Shown: piece by piece, positions 16,530 through 28,480 of the stretch
How the letters are laid out: the number at the start of each line of letters is the position of its first letter
Numbering within the stretch: position 1 is the first letter of the stretch
From: a virus
DNA length: 28,841 nucleotides
Virus record (IMG/VR): IMGVR_UViG_3300021185_001368
Coordinates: 1-28,841 of that record
Direction: 5' to 3' (one strand)
Made by a program: the position numbers and the translations under genes
Notes under the pieces: model-generated
Told to the model about the DNA's origin: nothing
The model's input: the letters and a program-made list of their open reading frames with translations, nothing else
Database searches by the model: none

Positions 16530-16557
16530 AAAAAGGGGGAGTGTTAGGTACACTCCC
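16530..16557 (-). terminator. Rho-independent terminator after the capsid gene
   Basis: On the minus strand GGGAGTGT and ACACTCCC form a perfect 8-bp stem around a 5-base loop, followed by CC and five T residues. It begins 21 bases after the capsid stop and ends just before the adaptor ATG. This could attenuate transcription so that capsid message exceeds neck and tail message. Confidence 0.8.
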
Positions 16558-16578: not shown

Positions 16579-18042
16579 TTAGCTAGCTTTGTACATCCAA
16601 GCCCATTTAGAAGTTGCACCGTCAATTAAGTCAGTGAATCCTAATCTCTGAGAAGCCACTAAGACTCTTCTTTGATTAATAACTTCGTAGTCAGATTCTA
16701 CAGTAACGCCTCTTAATCTTGGCATTACATAGTTTCTTGGGTTAACAGCGATAGCTCCGAACTTAGAAACTGCTGGTGTAGCAAACTCGTCACATAATAG
16801 TACTCTTGAACCGAATACTTGACCAATTTCACCAGAAAGCTTAGTAGCCATGTCGCCAACTAGGTTAGCGTCTTGGAACTCTGCATCTTCTAATAGTTCG
16901 TAGTATGATCTTTGTGAAACAATATATACTACTTCACTTGGGTTCACACCATATTTACCCATGTTCTTTCTCATTTCAAGTAAGTCAGTTGCTACAATTT
17001 TATCAGTTGCAAAAGCAGTTCCTGATTGTGTGTAGTCACTGTCATTTCTTGCTAAGTGTAGTAAACCTTCGAAAGAAGCTCCACTAGTACCGAATACTCC
17101 GTCAGCATCATCACCAGCTAGGATTGAGTTTTCAATTGCTCTAGCGTGTGATCTTACCATTGATTCTCTAATTAAAGGAAGGATTGGTAAGATTGCATCT
17201 TCTTCAGTTTCATTACCTAGGAATGATTGAGAGATAAGTTTTTTAGTTGAAAGAGTTCTTTCAGCCATAGATACCCCAGCATCGTCACCATAAGAAGCAG
17301 ACCTCATATCTAAATTGTCGTTTGCTACAGCAGACCCTGAAGTAAATTCAGCGTAACCGCTATCTGGTAAGATTGGGATAATCATGTTTGCAGAAGTCAT
17401 TGGTACTTCTCTAAATAGAGGAGCTAAGACTAATTCATTTTGAATATCTCTTTCTATGTTTGTTGAAACGATTTGTTCGAAATCAGCTGATGAAACTTGC
17501 ACACCTGAATGAGTGTTAACTTTTTCCATCACACCTTTAGCAACTTCACTGTCCCATCCTTTACCAGTCGCTAGACCAGCAAATTTTGCGTCAACGATAT
17601 CTTGCTCAAAAGTTTTCTTCCAATCGCCTTGACCATTTCTGTCAGAGAAATGTCTTTTAGACTCTCTGATGTTCATGATTTCTTCTGATTTCTCAGCTAG
17701 TTGAGATTCAAGAGATTTAACAACTGATTCTAAGTTAGAATAGTTCTCATTAACTCTAGATTCCACGTCATTCATTAGCTTTTCAGCTCCTGATAGACCT
17801 GCTTCAACTATAGTTTTAGTTTTTTCCTGATCTGCTACTTCAGCAGCTTTTTGAACTTCGGCGTCGTCAGTTGCTTTTTGAGCAGCTTCGTCTGCAGCCT
17901 TCTGTTCAGCAGCTTTTTGTTCAGCTTGTTTCATTGCAATTTCAGCAGCTGTATCTGCAGCTACTTGCTTTGCGAATGCCTCAAGATTGAACTCTGAGTT
18001 GCTTTCAGGAGATTTATTTTCTTTTGACATATTTGTCTCCAT
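16579..18042 (-). CDS. Probable internal-start capsid protein (delta domain plus capsid)
   Basis: Inside the fusion gene the minus strand has AAGGGAGG at 18061-18054, then 11 bases, then ATG at 18042 (Met193). A second ATG at 18030 (Met197) has GGAG six bases before it. A site this strong inside a coding region, exactly at the junction between protease and scaffold/capsid, is best explained by separate translation of a 487-residue capsid precursor. This would let the phage make hundreds of capsid subunits and few proteases. It remains an inference until the protein N-terminus is measured. Confidence 0.5.
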   Translation of the reverse strand: METNMSKENKSPESNSEFNLEAFAKQVAADTAAEIAMKQAEQKAAEQKAADEAAQKATDDAEVQKAAEVADQEKTKTIVEAGLSGAEKLMNDVESRVNENYSNLESVVKSLESQLAEKSEEIMNIRESKRHFSDRNGQGDWKKTFEQDIVDAKFAGLATGKGWDSEVAKGVMEKVNTHSGVQVSSADFEQIVSTNIERDIQNELVLAPLFREVPMTSANMIIPILPDSGYAEFTSGSAVANDNLDMRSASYGDDAGVSMAERTLSTKKLISQSFLGNETEEDAILPILPLIRESMVRSHARAIENSILAGDDADGVFGTSGASFEGLLHLARNDSDYTQSGTAFATDKIVATDLLEMRKNMGKYGVNPSEVVYIVSQRSYYELLEDAEFQDANLVGDMATKLSGEIGQVFGSRVLLCDEFATPAVSKFGAIAVNPRNYVMPRLRGVTVESDYEVINQRRVLVASQRLGFTDLIDGATSKWAWMYKAS

Positions 18043-18618
18043 GTTATGGGATTCCTCCCTTCTTGGCTGCTCAACATTAACAGCGTCTGCTGATTCTGCT
18101 GGGTTAGCCTTATAAAAAGTTTGCTTATACTCGTTGTATTGCTCCATACTATCAAATGACTTGCTTAAGCCAAAGGTTGCCCCTTGGTTGCAAGGTACTG
18201 ATACTACAGAAACTTCAAAAAGCTCCGCGTCCTTTATTTTGTATCCATCGGTTTCTGTCATATAATCGGCTTCCTTGACTTTGAAACCGACAGAAAAAGC
18301 TCCAAGGACACCGTCTTTAATTAATTGTGTTACATCTCCAGCAGCTTTTGATATCTTTGCAGATATTTCTAAACCGTTTTCTGTAACTTTTAAATCTTTT
18401 GCACGACCAATTGGTTTGTCGTAGTTGTGATTAAACAAAATGATTGGATTATTTTTGAAGTTCTCTAATCCACCTTTTGTCCATGCATCGCTTTCAATAA
18501 TATCTCCAGCTCTGTCAATACCATTTGTACTTGCAGAACCTTTAATATCTATACCGCCATCATCAGTTTCACCTAATGATTTGAAAGTGCTAGTCCAATG
18601 ATAAATTTTACTTGACAT
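16579..18618 (-). CDS. Prohead protease fused to major capsid protein (HK97 family)
   Basis: One frame of 679 codons joins two usually separate genes. Residues 1-150 are a U35-type prohead protease with the candidate catalytic His64 (in ILFNHNYDKPIG), Ser109 (in GAFSVGFK) and an acidic residue in ELFEVSVVSVPCN near 132-135. Residues 205-320 are Ala/Gln/Lys/Glu-rich coiled coil, like the scaffolding delta domain of HK97 capsid protein. Residues 330-679 are the HK97-fold capsid protein, with GFTDLIDGATSKWAWMY at the end. The protease should remove the delta domain during maturation. An internal AAGGGAGG site before Met193 could also give unfused capsid protein. The start ATG overlaps the upstream gene by 11 bases. 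The fusion is continuous in the reading I checked; a sequencing frameshift would have to be absent for both halves. Confidence 0.9.
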   Translation of the reverse strand: MSSKIYHWTSTFKSLGETDDGGIDIKGSASTNGIDRAGDIIESDAWTKGGLENFKNNPIILFNHNYDKPIGRAKDLKVTENGLEISAKISKAAGDVTQLIKDGVLGAFSVGFKVKEADYMTETDGYKIKDAELFEVSVVSVPCNQGATFGLSKSFDSMEQYNEYKQTFYKANPAESADAVNVEQPRREESHNMETNMSKENKSPESNSEFNLEAFAKQVAADTAAEIAMKQAEQKAAEQKAADEAAQKATDDAEVQKAAEVADQEKTKTIVEAGLSGAEKLMNDVESRVNENYSNLESVVKSLESQLAEKSEEIMNIRESKRHFSDRNGQGDWKKTFEQDIVDAKFAGLATGKGWDSEVAKGVMEKVNTHSGVQVSSADFEQIVSTNIERDIQNELVLAPLFREVPMTSANMIIPILPDSGYAEFTSGSAVANDNLDMRSASYGDDAGVSMAERTLSTKKLISQSFLGNETEEDAILPILPLIRESMVRSHARAIENSILAGDDADGVFGTSGASFEGLLHLARNDSDYTQSGTAFATDKIVATDLLEMRKNMGKYGVNPSEVVYIVSQRSYYELLEDAEFQDANLVGDMATKLSGEIGQVFGSRVLLCDEFATPAVSKFGAIAVNPRNYVMPRLRGVTVESDYEVINQRRVLVASQRLGFTDLIDGATSKWAWMYKAS

Positions 18619-18874
18619 CTTTTTTCTCCACTTTCTTAGCAGGTGCTTTTTTCTCAGCAGGTGCTTCTTTTACTTCTGGTGCGACTATTACGTCTACTGG
18701 GTATCTTTTTGAGACTACACTAAGTACTCTACTCCAAGAACCAAATGCTCTTCTTAATAAGTAATCTTTAACAGGAACATCAGTCCCTTTTGCTTTATAA
18801 GCAGGTAGATCCATTATACCACCTTCTTTTTTAAAGTACTCAGAAAGAGACTTTACCATCATATCTTTTGTCAT
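18608..18874 (-). CDS. Small lysine-rich protein between portal and protease
   Basis: An 88-residue protein I do not recognise. The N-terminal 55 residues look folded and helical (MTKDMMVKSLSEYFKKEGG, then YLLRRAFGSWSRVLSVVSKR). The C-terminal 30 are Ala/Pro/Lys/Glu repeats (APAEKKAPAKK) like a flexible, possibly capsid-internal tail. It lies two bases after the portal stop and overlaps the protease start by 11 bases, so it belongs to the head operon. A head-assembly or DNA-contact role is possible from its position only. Confidence 0.6.
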   Translation of the reverse strand: MTKDMMVKSLSEYFKKEGGIMDLPAYKAKGTDVPVKDYLLRRAFGSWSRVLSVVSKRYPVDVIVAPEVKEAPAEKKAPAKKVEKKDVK

Positions 18875-24841: not shown

Positions 24842-26632
24842 CTATTTTCTGATGGTATATATTTTAACTGGTTCGGTCTTTCCTTTTACCGTAACTTCTG
24901 CTAGGAACTCGTAATCGAAACCGTCAACTAAACTGTGCTCCGATATGATAAGATCCGCATCATATTCTTTACAAGAGGATTCTAAACGAGCAGCTAGATT
25001 AACGGCATCACCAAGTACGCTATAGTCGAAACGAGTACTAGACCCAAAATTTCCAACAACACATGGTCCTGTGTTGATTCCAGCCCCTGTGTTAATTTCG
25101 TCAAGGCCTTCTTCCCTGAGTTTTTCATTTAATTCTCCTAATGCTATTCTCATTTCAATAGCACACTCTGTGGCTTTTCTTTCTTGTTCTTCTACATCTA
25201 AGGGAGCATTCCAGAAAGCCATGATGCAATCTCCCATATATTTATCTATTGTGCCTTCATGTTTCAAAATTATTTCAGTCTGATTGTCTAAAAAGCGGTT
25301 AATTAAATGAGTAAGACCTTGAGGGTCTTTTTGGTATTTTTCGGAAATTGGTGTGAATCCTCGAATATCTGAAAAAAGAAAAGTGAGTCGTTTAGTCTCC
25401 CCACCCAATCTCAGCAATGTGGGGTCGTCCTGTAATTTTTTTACCAAGGCCGGACTAACGTACGTGCCAAATTGTTGTTTAATTTGTAATCGAAGCAAAT
25501 ATTGCGTAATGAAATTACGGAAACTTTCAATAGCCCAGAAAACAAATGCGACTAAAATAGTTCCAGAAACGTCAACCAAGTAAGAAGATTTCCACATTTC
25601 CAGCGTAAAGTAAATAAGCCCTCCAATAGTAATTGCTAAGACTGGAACTGATAACCATATACGAGGTGCAGTAATCGAAAGTAATAGTAGAGCTAGAAGG
25701 GCGGCTCCTAACTCTACTGCTACATTCCATGTCGGGATGGATGGACTGTTTCCCTCTATCAAAGAGTGGAGAACATTTGCTTGAATTTCGTGCGGATATA
25801 CAGCTCCTTGTGCTGTGGGCACTGGGTTAGTTACTCCTTCTGCTGTAACCCCGAAGATAACAAAAGGTGCTGGTATTGGATTTTGCATATACTGTGATGC
25901 AGTTTGTCTATAAAATTTTACATTTTGTTGAATCCATATTCGTGCATTTGCATCAGTGTTTACATTTGGATAATTAGGTATTCTTAACCACTCTACTCCT
26001 GTTTCATTAGTCTTAATTTGATAGCTTGGGTCACCTACTGCTACTCTTAACATTTCAAGTGGAAAACTTGGATATAGTTTATCTCCGCTTCCTACGACTA
26101 CTGGCATGCGCCTGACGACGCCGTCTATTTCTGGACTTGAGTTTATTAAGCCTACGCCCCCTGCGTTTAGTTGTAAGATCGATAGTTGTCGTAAAATTCC
26201 CGGATAGTTCAATAGCCATGGTAATGGATTCTCCCCTAATTGAGCTGTACCTACGTGAGGCCCTGACTCTGTTGCTTGAGTGGAAGCTGCATAAGCTAAC
26301 ACGGTTGGTTTAACTGACATAGCAGATGCTAACTTATAGTCATTTCTGCTGTCTCTTAAATCAGGGTCTGGCATTAATAAAGTTAGCCCAGATACTCCTT
26401 CTGTACTCTCTATCATGCTGGCAAATAAACTTCTTGGCAGAGGATACCCTCCGTAAGCTTCTACTATCTCTTCATCTAAATCGACAAGAAGTATATTTTC
26501 ATTTTGAATTGTTGGGGATTTTGACATTAAGTAATCGAATGTACTTAGTTCAAGTATTTTGAAAGGGTAAGGATTCCAGATAAGAAGTCCTAGCAAGGAT
26601 GCTGCTATAGCAAAGCTAATTAAATGTTTCAT
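24842..26632 (-). CDS. CHASE2-domain membrane adenylate cyclase (class III)
   Basis: A 596-residue protein. An N-terminal membrane helix (residues 5-20) is followed by a periplasmic CHASE2 sensor domain (about 25-295, with ILLVDLDEEIVEAYGGYPLP early on), three membrane helices near 303-323, 326-343 and 351-370, a linker helix, and a class III cyclase domain from about 414. Catalytic residues are all present: metal-binding Asp422 (FLFSDIRGFT) and Asp468 (KYMGDCIMAFW), adenine-selecting Lys464 and Asp542 (LGDAVN), and Asn545 and Arg549 for the transition state. It should therefore make cAMP from ATP in response to a periplasmic signal. It is coupled by ATGA to the curlin-like gene upstream and follows the FecR gene. 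FecR-domain and CHASE2-cyclase genes are neighbours in various bacterial genomes, as I recall; in a phage this is surprising. Confidence 0.92.
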   Translation of the reverse strand: MKHLISFAIAASLLGLLIWNPYPFKILELSTFDYLMSKSPTIQNENILLVDLDEEIVEAYGGYPLPRSLFASMIESTEGVSGLTLLMPDPDLRDSRNDYKLASAMSVKPTVLAYAASTQATESGPHVGTAQLGENPLPWLLNYPGILRQLSILQLNAGGVGLINSSPEIDGVVRRMPVVVGSGDKLYPSFPLEMLRVAVGDPSYQIKTNETGVEWLRIPNYPNVNTDANARIWIQQNVKFYRQTASQYMQNPIPAPFVIFGVTAEGVTNPVPTAQGAVYPHEIQANVLHSLIEGNSPSIPTWNVAVELGAALLALLLLSITAPRIWLSVPVLAITIGGLIYFTLEMWKSSYLVDVSGTILVAFVFWAIESFRNFITQYLLRLQIKQQFGTYVSPALVKKLQDDPTLLRLGGETKRLTFLFSDIRGFTPISEKYQKDPQGLTHLINRFLDNQTEIILKHEGTIDKYMGDCIMAFWNAPLDVEEQERKATECAIEMRIALGELNEKLREEGLDEINTGAGINTGPCVVGNFGSSTRFDYSVLGDAVNLAARLESSCKEYDADLIISEHSLVDGFDYEFLAEVTVKGKTEPVKIYTIRK

Positions 26633-27423
26633 TGTTGTGTGATAGATATAGTTTTTGTGCAGTCAGCTGTGCAATTGAAAGTTGCGGTATATGTTTGATT
26701 TGTGGCCCCAAGTTGGGTTACATCTACATCATACCCTGTTGTATAGAATTTCATATTTGCTACGTGAGCTCCTGTTCCATATTGTGTTAAGTCTACTTCA
26801 TTATCAGAGTTGTAAAAGAATATATCTGCATCTTTGTTACCACTACCATACTGAGTAACACTTACCGAGTTATTGTGCGCACCGCCATTTCCATAAATAT
26901 AAGAATTATGTTGGCCAGTCCCATACTGATTAACAGTAATATCAGAATCATCACCGAAAAAGAATATTTTGCTATATTTGTTATTTCCTGTTTGAGTAGT
27001 TGAATAAACATTGTCGTCTCCAGAGCCTAAAGCCTCGGCATGATTATCATTACCTGTTTGAGTAATAGTTACTACATTGTCGTCTTCATCTTGGTCAATA
27101 TATGCATAGTTATCATTACCGTCTATAGTTACAGTAGAAGAGTTTCCTATATTGTTTGACCATACAGTATACATCTTAACTGTATTACTATTGCCTTCTA
27201 TAGTACTGCTCCATACGGCGTTTGTGCAGCTATGAGCGCTATAGGAAGCTCCGGTTATAGTTCCGCCTGAGTTTGCTCCACAAAGAATAGTAGTAATATT
27301 ACCATTACCTACTTGCTTAGTAGTAATTTGATTATTTGTTCCTTTTGTAATAATCGTAGTAGAGTTATCCCCAGCAAAGCTAAGGGGACTGATTAATAAT
27401 AATAACGTTATCACCCGCACCAT
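26629..27423 (-). CDS. Secreted curlin-like repeat protein
   Basis: A 264-residue protein with a Sec signal peptide (MVRVITLLLLISPLSFAGDN, cleavage likely after Ala17). The mature part consists of curlin-type repeats with Q-x-G motifs at Gln37, 122, 144, 166, 191, 214 and 237, so six repeats spaced 22-25 residues from 122 on, each with surrounding V/I-x-V/I strands and Asn-rich turns (VVTITQTGNDN, ITVNQYGTGQHN). This is the CsgA/CsgB pattern that stacks into a cross-beta amyloid. Cysteine pairs lie at 48/66 and 251/255. No CsgG-type exporter is seen here, so the host's would be needed or the protein stays periplasmic. It starts 44 bases inside the FecR gene and overlaps the cyclase start. Confidence 0.82.
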   Translation of the reverse strand: MVRVITLLLLISPLSFAGDNSTTIITKGTNNQITTKQVGNGNITTILCGANSGGTITGASYSAHSCTNAVWSSTIEGNSNTVKMYTVWSNNIGNSSTVTIDGNDNYAYIDQDEDDNVVTITQTGNDNHAEALGSGDDNVYSTTQTGNNKYSKIFFFGDDSDITVNQYGTGQHNSYIYGNGGAHNNSVSVTQYGSGNKDADIFFYNSDNEVDLTQYGTGAHVANMKFYTTGYDVDVTQLGATNQTYTATFNCTADCTKTISITQQ

Positions 27424-28480
27424 TGATATTCACCTCCAATATTACTCCTGCGTTGTTTATATATAAATAAGTACCTGCGTTTATATCGATACCTATATCG
27501 TAGTTATTCTGCCCTTCGTGAACAAAGTAAATCATTCCTTCTTCCACAAAAGTGTATGTCTGGTATATAGGGTCAAAGCCTGCTATTATACCTTCAAGTT
27601 CTACTCCATTTAATTCTGAAGTCTGGTTTTTCTTTTTACTTGTTGTTTCTACAAGTGCTAGTAAATCTATTAGAAACTCTACACTCAGTAAATCAATGTC
27701 TAGTCTTGTGACTTCTTTATCGTCTTCGTCACATTCCTCTACTAGAGCATCGCAGTTTAAATCTGGCGCATCTTCAAAGAAGTCTTTATCTAAGTCTGCT
27801 GTTGGTGAGACTCCAGCTTCTTGTTCTTCTATTGCTTGTTCGACTTCTTCAGGTCTTTGAACAATTAGCATATTGTCAATTAGTCCAAGTGTCAGGCCTC
27901 CAAGAGTTACTTTTGGTGTAGGTGGTTGTTCCCACGCTGAAACCATTGTTGCTTGAAAAGGCTCATTAAGTACCTCTACTCCAGATGCAGTTGTTACTGT
28001 TATCTCTCCTGAAGAGTTTCCATTCTCATCTGGTAGTAAGATTACTAAACTTCTACCTAGTTCATCTACTGTTGTTGTAAAATCTGTTCCACGAATACCT
28101 ATCTTAGCTGTAGGAGTATTAATAGTTATGTTTTCTTTATTAATTTTTCCAAAAGCACCCGAAATGAATCGAGCTGTTCCAGATGCCATGTTAAGAGCCA
28201 TTTTACTCTTTGCTGGGTCTGGGTCAAAGATATATTCATCTATAATTAACTTTGAGTGTTCTGTTAGTTTAACTATAGAATCATCTAGAAACTGTATCGC
28301 GAGTCTTCCGTTTCCTGTTCTTACATCATCGTAGGAAAAAATATCTGAAGCTATCTCCGCACTGAAAGAATCATTAGAGTTTACTCTAGTAATTTCTCCA
28401 TTGCCTTTTAGTTCAGATATTTCTCCTATCTCAATTGAAAAGGCTGGTATACTAAAAAGTATTAACAGCCAGAAGCGCAT
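27380..28480 (-). CDS. Secreted FecR-domain protein
   Basis: A 366-residue protein with a signal peptide (MRFWLLILFSIPAFS, about 15 residues) and a FecR domain near residues 50-150: DDVRTGNGRLAIQFLDDSIV, KLTEHSKLIIDEYIF, a SGTARFISGAF segment, and INTPTAKIGIRGTDFTTTVD. The middle, 205-260, is acidic and probably flexible (EEVEQAIEEQE, EECDEDDKE). The last 40 residues form beta strands ending VNINGAGDNVIIINQSP, similar to one half of a curlin-type repeat. FecR domains in the periplasm usually present a signal to a membrane partner; here the CHASE2 cyclase two genes on is the natural candidate. It overlaps the upstream curlin-like gene by 19 bases and the downstream one by 44. Confidence 0.85.
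   Translation of the reverse strand: MRFWLLILFSIPAFSIEIGEISELKGNGEITRVNSNDSFSAEIASDIFSYDDVRTGNGRLAIQFLDDSIVKLTEHSKLIIDEYIFDPDPAKSKMALNMASGTARFISGAFGKINKENITINTPTAKIGIRGTDFTTTVDELGRSLVILLPDENGNSSGEITVTTASGVEVLNEPFQATMVSAWEQPPTPKVTLGGLTLGLIDNMLIVQRPEEVEQAIEEQEAGVSPTADLDKDFFEDAPDLNCDALVEECDEDDKEVTRLDIDLLSVEFLIDLLALVETTSKKKNQTSELNGVELEGIIAGFDPIYQTYTFVEEGMIYFVHEGQNNYDIGIDINAGTYLYINNAGVILEVNINGAGDNVIIINQSP

Follow-up and report, generated by a model that had tools for sequence, protein, structure and literature searches.

A protease and a capsid protein in one reading frame

The window analysed here, a 28,841-nucleotide fragment from IMG/VR (IMGVR_UViG_3300021185_001368), carries a single open reading frame in which a prohead protease is followed by a linker, a delta/scaffold domain and an HK97-fold capsid protein. 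The parts of this gene and its flanking signals are as follows.

18626–18629, minus strand: GGAG, the Shine-Dalgarno (SD) sequence of the protease start ATG 18618, seen in the sequence; an SD is also present at most relatives' upstream starts
16579–18618, minus strand: the whole fused reading frame, 679 residues, protease–linker–delta/scaffold–capsid (sequence and Pfam)
18145–18618, minus strand: protease domain, residues 1–158 (Pfam PF04586, 1.8e-15)
18031–18144, minus strand: linker, residues 159–196, largely predicted to be disordered (AlphaFold2)
17521–18030, minus strand: delta/scaffold domain, residues 197–366, with long predicted helices (H212–291 and H296–319)
16582–17520, minus strand: mature capsid region, residues 367–679, HK97 fold, nearest to the DT57C and T5 capsids (sequence and structure matches)
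16537–16557, minus strand: intrinsic terminator directly after the capsid stop codon; a similar hairpin and T-tract occur in relatives, including T5-like phages

Pfam places Peptidase_S78 at residues 56–158 and Phage_capsid at residues 386–661, and the protease residues H64 and S137 are invariant in an alignment of 39 sequences. The predicted structure, which is of moderate overall confidence (mean pLDDT 65.8, pTM 0.42), comprises the protease domain, a low-confidence linker at residues 171–213 (pLDDT below 50, about 30), long helices across residues 212–319 and a capsid domain whose top PDB matches are the DT57C and T5 capsids. By sequence, the nearest solved proteins are T5-like capsids (8ho3, 8zvi and 5tjt). 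Because the alignment of the mature T5 capsid chain (5tjt) to the fusion begins at residue 367, residues 197–366 are the counterpart of the delta/scaffold part that is removed in T5, and this domain is probably cut off near residue 366/367. The gene thus genuinely joins, in one frame, a prohead protease of the S78 type, a delta/scaffold domain rich in helices and a capsid protein with a T5-like HK97 fold.

The gene order around the fusion is that of T5: terminase, portal, a small gene, protease, capsid, head completion and tail genes. The protease start ATG 18618 overlaps the 3' end of the preceding reading frame (18608–18874) by 11 bases. The terminator at 16537–16557 lies between the capsid and head-completion genes, where comparable hairpins are found in split T5-like phages. 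Elsewhere in the window, three adjacent minus-strand genes (24842–28480) look cellular rather than phage-like. They encode a protein with CHASE2 and adenylate/guanylate cyclase domains (24842–26632), which matches a PHROG of unknown function at 2e-158, a curlin-repeat protein (26629–27423) and a FecR-domain protein (27380–28480).

Distribution of the fused gene

The phages with the fused gene form a large group of uncultured T5 relatives from marine and environmental sources. Protease and capsid are fused in all 258 classifiable loci that we fetched for this clade, and 22 T5-like loci have them as separate genes. A tree with 47 rows places one change, with a support of 100 and in either direction, between the fused and split states. 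No cultured phage in the collection matches the fusion protein at 60% identity or above, the best matches being split T5-like genes, and a genome scan for hosts gave only two contigs, both from metagenome-assembled genomes (MAGs).

In some distant relatives, the open frame runs upstream of the protease into extra domains: Hva1_TUDOR in L231 (916–2130) and L238 (2053–2400), and DUF3721 in L271 (1210–2310). In L271 and L238 the protease part, too, begins with an ATG preceded by an SD, and these genes may be further nested fusions.

A conserved start signal at the junction

The initial annotation proposed that the gene yields both the fusion and a free delta-capsid precursor, the latter from an internal start at the junction of the two parts. 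The sequences concerned are listed here.

18054–18061, minus strand: AAGGGAGG, the SD proposed initially, present in 15 of 152 relatives
18040–18042, minus strand: the ATG proposed initially, kept in 102 of 152 relatives; the conserved GGAG begins with the G of this codon
18037–18040, minus strand: GGAG, the conserved SD of the internal start, at positions −10 to −7 in 150 of 152 relatives
18028–18030, minus strand: internal start ATG at residue 197 (MSKENKSPES...), which would give a 483-residue delta-capsid precursor (conservation, and placement like Met1 of the T5 and KIT04 capsids)

In the window, AAGGGAGG (18061–18054) is present as described, 11 nt before ATG 18042–18040 and in frame with the 679-residue reading frame. 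The site falls between the protease and the delta/capsid parts as claimed, within the linker segment predicted to be disordered (residues 171–213). Judged on this gene alone, SD strength favours initiation at ATG 18042 driven by AAGGGAGG: the SD of this codon is the strongest among the 18 in-frame ATGs (−11.0, codon-shuffle P = 0.02; AAGGGAGG turns up somewhere in 9% of codon-shuffled genes), and motif and ATG recur in the close clade. The spacing of 11 nt is long, however. Conservation among relatives, which the annotation had named as a check on its proposal, speaks against this site: the motif is found in only 15 of the 152 relatives, and the codon at the position of ATG 18042 is ATG in 102, ACG in 42, CAG in 4, AAG in 3 and GGA in 1, so that the start is lost in 50. 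We rejected ATG 18042 as a conserved start on these grounds. That it is the internal start appears improbable; it may at most be an added second start in the nearest relatives.

The conserved start lies 12 bases further downstream and consists of GGAG, a gap of 6 nt and ATG 18030, the GGAG overlapping the ATG proposed initially. Around it the relatives keep the pattern xxG GAG ACN NNN ATG TC. The Glu codon within the SD is GAG in 150 of 152 genes, compared with 26% of Glu codons overall. The residue that overlaps the first base of GGAG varies among Met, Thr, Lys and Gln in the near relatives, and its codon always ends in G, with locus L267 as the sole exception; where this residue is Thr, the codon is always ACG, which accounts for 3.7% of Thr codons in these genes. 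The two genes lacking GGAG in the standard register keep an SD in another reading register, as GGAG in L267 (GGAGAAAATATAATG) and AAGGA in L271 (AAGGAAAAAGTAATG). Synonymous conservation in the codons just upstream of ATG 18030 is among the highest in the gene.

The case for ATG 18030 is comparative; its SD is unexceptional in the window alone (−6.4 kcal/mol, third of the 18 in-frame ATGs, P = 0.24). We compared 18 divergent fused lineages, clustered at an identity below 75%. In 16 of them no other in-frame ATG of the gene has an SD as strong as that of the junction ATG, with about 3 expected (P = 1.3e-11). Single-gene shuffle tests are weak, with per-lineage P values mostly above 0.05, and for this reason we report pooled tests: the pooled junction SD is stronger than in codon-shuffled genes for the same protein (z = −6.5). 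In distant fused genes, at 38–60% capsid identity, the ATG that opens the delta domain is nearly always preceded by an SD even though the residues differ; the signal is weak (−3.5) in L242 and L265. Two loci from bacterial MAGs, which were found later and were not used in forming the rule, also fit it (AAAAGGAG followed by ATG-MSE). In position and domain boundary, Met197 corresponds to Met1 of the separate T5 and KIT04 capsid genes; the match rests on these two features because the first residues of the delta domain align poorly with T5.

These patterns could in principle reflect a feature of the protein, such as an autocleavage site between protease and delta domain, rather than translation, and the residues (I/V)EQPS and ET.MS are indeed conserved in the near clade. 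However, the residue over the SD varies between M, T, K and Q while its third base stays constant, and distant lineages keep SD and ATG with other residues and in other reading registers. We consider a protein-level explanation highly improbable. A different possibility is that only the full-length polyprotein is made, with protease on every shell subunit until maturation, and that the junction start is a relic of an ancestral separate capsid gene. The fused frame is uninterrupted, and any fusion that deleted the stop codon would leave a start behind. A relic would be expected to decay, yet GGAG has been kept through large protein divergence and against codon preference; moreover, the split genes could even be the derived state. 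A relic is very unlikely to account for the signal. Comparative evidence thus gives good support to a junction start that has its own signal and is under nucleotide-level selection in the fused clade. The principle put forward in the initial annotation is well supported by this selection, whereas the SD and start codon that it named are replaced by those 12 bases downstream.

RNA elements around the internal start

Three further elements lie close to the internal start.

18061–18075, minus strand: GTTGAGCAGCCAAGA, a stretch where synonymous conservation reaches some of the highest levels in the gene (codons 183–184)
18048–18059, minus strand: small RNA hairpin GGGA-GGAA-TCCC, the 5' arm of which is the core of the SD proposed initially (covariation; pooled stability above codon shuffles)
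18008–18011, minus strand: CTCC, the complement of the internal GGAG, a possible start-sequestering stem that is paired with GGAG in the predicted fold

The hairpin was recovered unaided by RNAalifold. Its covariation score is 0.392, against 0.118 ± 0.020 for shuffled alignments and at most 0.098 with slid partners, and changes on both sides are seen at four of the five pairs. Variants in relatives include GGC-GAAA-GCC, GGGC-ACAA-GCCC, GAGGA-GAAA-TCCTC, CCGC-AAAT-GCGG and ACAGC-AAAT-GCTGT. Stability in single genes is mostly not significant, the significance being pooled: with 24 divergent genes taken together, codon shuffles fold less stably than the region does (z = −4.5), and the perfect-stem score is raised (z = 4.1). 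No clear hairpin was found in L233, L242 or L265. The GGGA of AAGGGAGG is 96–99% paired in the predicted fold, and its place inside a covarying hairpin is a further argument against its use as an SD. A second upstream hairpin (GCTGTT/AGCAGC), spotted by eye, was unsupported by the consensus fold, and Rfam gave no match at gathering score anywhere in the window.

A hairpin is also predicted directly before the capsid SD in BF23, where protease and capsid are separate genes, and none is predicted before the capsid start of Vibrio KIT04. In our reading, the covarying hairpin just upstream of the SD is part of the start module, and it is perhaps not specific to fusions. Most likely it keeps the start open to ribosomes or shields the end of a processed mRNA.

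The CTCC element is found downstream of GGAG in 147 of 150 relatives, in the same place in 145 of 150, and lies 19 bases into the short reading frame. The complement is near-invariant, which makes covariation uninformative for it. Pairing with GGAG could reduce or gate initiation, which counts against ATG 18030; as a switch, CTCC might close the internal start until a ribosome arriving from the protease part opens GGAG.

Synonymous conservation also reaches upstream of the SD. In codons 183–184, GAG is used for 148 of 152 Glu and CAG for 149 of 149 Gln, against a general use of 26% and 25%. This block, RTTGAGCAGCCAAG (18075–18061), may serve as a promoter or processing site, or may belong to an RNA structure. 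Its conservation would suit an arrangement in which most of the capsid-only product is translated from an mRNA of its own, made from an internal promoter or by RNA processing upstream of the hairpin. The hairpin would then form a protected mRNA 5' end, and herpesvirus UL26.5 within UL26 offers a gene-within-gene parallel. Against this, a search limited to sigma-70-like promoters found none at the junction. We regard such an mRNA as the main source of the short product as rather unlikely; the idea is compatible with a two-product gene, in which the same start codon would be used.

A proposed nested gene for fusion and capsid precursor

We propose that the fused gene is a nested two-product gene with an internal start at ATG 18030 and its SD at GGAG 18040–18037, a reading to which we assign a probability of roughly 80% on the comparative sequence evidence. 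Ribosomes that start at ATG 18618 would meet no stop codon and would make the 679-residue protease–linker–delta–capsid chain. Those starting at ATG 18030 by means of GGAG would make the delta-capsid part alone, a 483-residue product without protease that would be the counterpart of the separate capsid precursor of T5. With no stop codon lying between the protease and capsid parts, all protease translated from ATG 18618 would be attached to a capsid subunit, and we infer from the same absence that the fusion co-assembles into the shell. Long and short products, both bearing the delta scaffold and the shell fold, would assemble together, and the fusion subunits would bring a limited dose of protease, covalently tied to scaffold, into the prohead. 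Cleavage near residue 366/367 would then release protease and delta domain and leave identical mature shell subunits.

The short-product start probably sets the amount of protease built into each shell. The initial annotation had the fusion rare and the capsid precursor abundant. The two SDs in the window are equal in computed strength (−6.4 each for ATG 18618 and ATG 18030), and because of this the ratio of long to short product cannot be read from the sequence. If correct, the nested arrangement would explain why a phage with one protease-shell gene need not have protease attached to all of its shell subunits, and by what route a limited amount of it enters the shell.

Fusions in cultured phages

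Single protease-capsid reading frames also occur in actinophages (Arthrobacter AM/AN/AU, Rhodococcus RRH1 and Microbacterium EE) and in Pseudomonas PAJU2. Like these, the 679-residue gene holds protease, scaffold and capsid domains in one frame; they have little sequence similarity to the T5-related fused clade. In the first three that we checked (Circum gp12, Maggie gp7 and PAJU2 ORF3), the in-frame ATG with the strongest SD is at the junction (Met165, Met160 and Met197, respectively). We then checked 17 other phages related to Circum and Maggie; most carry a Met at the equivalent position, in the usual case preceded by an SD, as before KTVKEV in the Circum family and in the group of Coeur, McGonagall and RRH1; GirlPower and HotFries have no Met at the homologous junction place. 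Most of the 20 cultured fusions checked thus have a junction ATG with an SD. Few of the codon-shuffle tests on these genes reach significance, so that the generalisation rests on position and homology. Moraxella Mcat3 was considered as a further fusion and set aside, its protease and coat being separate genes.

It is an evenly balanced proposition that protease-capsid fusion genes in several unrelated HK97-fold groups are nested two-product genes, in which a junction capsid start has been kept or regained and shells are doped with covalent protease, with the covarying hairpin regulating the start in the T5-related clade. The initial interpretation is right in outline, wrong in its start codon and possibly more general than a single sequence could reveal. 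In the accessible text of their descriptions, the fusion genes of cultured phages are treated as single fusion proteins (PMC5513430, PMC7302621, PMC9671004, PMC9753647). An internal start in fusions of this kind was not reported anywhere in the accessible text of the literature searched, which excluded most subscription journals. Annotation of actinophage and metagenome genes as one fusion protein probably hides a second product, made in larger amounts.

Comparison with known head modules and nested genes

The T5-like phages (Demerecviridae, including BF23, DT57C and Vibrio KIT04) share with the window a homologous protease, delta domain and capsid fold, the gene order and the terminator after the capsid gene. 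They differ in having two separate genes with a stop codon between them and a free protease protein; their capsid genes begin 13–17 nt after the protease stop, in another frame. The window has homologous protease and capsid in the T5 order and lacks separate genes for them. BF23 resembles the fused clade further in having GGAG as well as its predicted hairpin before the capsid start, but this GGAG lies 12 nt from the ATG.

The closest parallels in organisation are nested genes in which a protease-bearing product and a shorter one share a C-terminus, and the fused gene likewise has an internal in-frame start with its own signal under selection. In phage lambda, C and Nu3 form an in-frame nested gene whose long product carries the protease and whose short product shares its C-terminus. 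The nested lambda product is scaffold only, and the capsid protein gpE comes from a separate gene. The nested logic is the same here, except that the nested product would include the shell protein itself. A lambda scaffold-protease fusion is mentioned in the accessible text of PMC5513430. In herpesviruses, UL26 encodes protease fused to scaffold, and UL26.5 a shorter scaffold that shares its C-terminus, the protease-derived form being about 10% of scaffold (PMC12474303). The herpesvirus arrangement differs in that UL26.5 is a gene of its own starting inside UL26, and the capsid protein lies outside the fusion. In HK97 and T5 the scaffold forms the N-terminal part of the capsid protein (PMC10275583), and because of this, protease, scaffold and shell all come to lie on one chain in the fusion described here.
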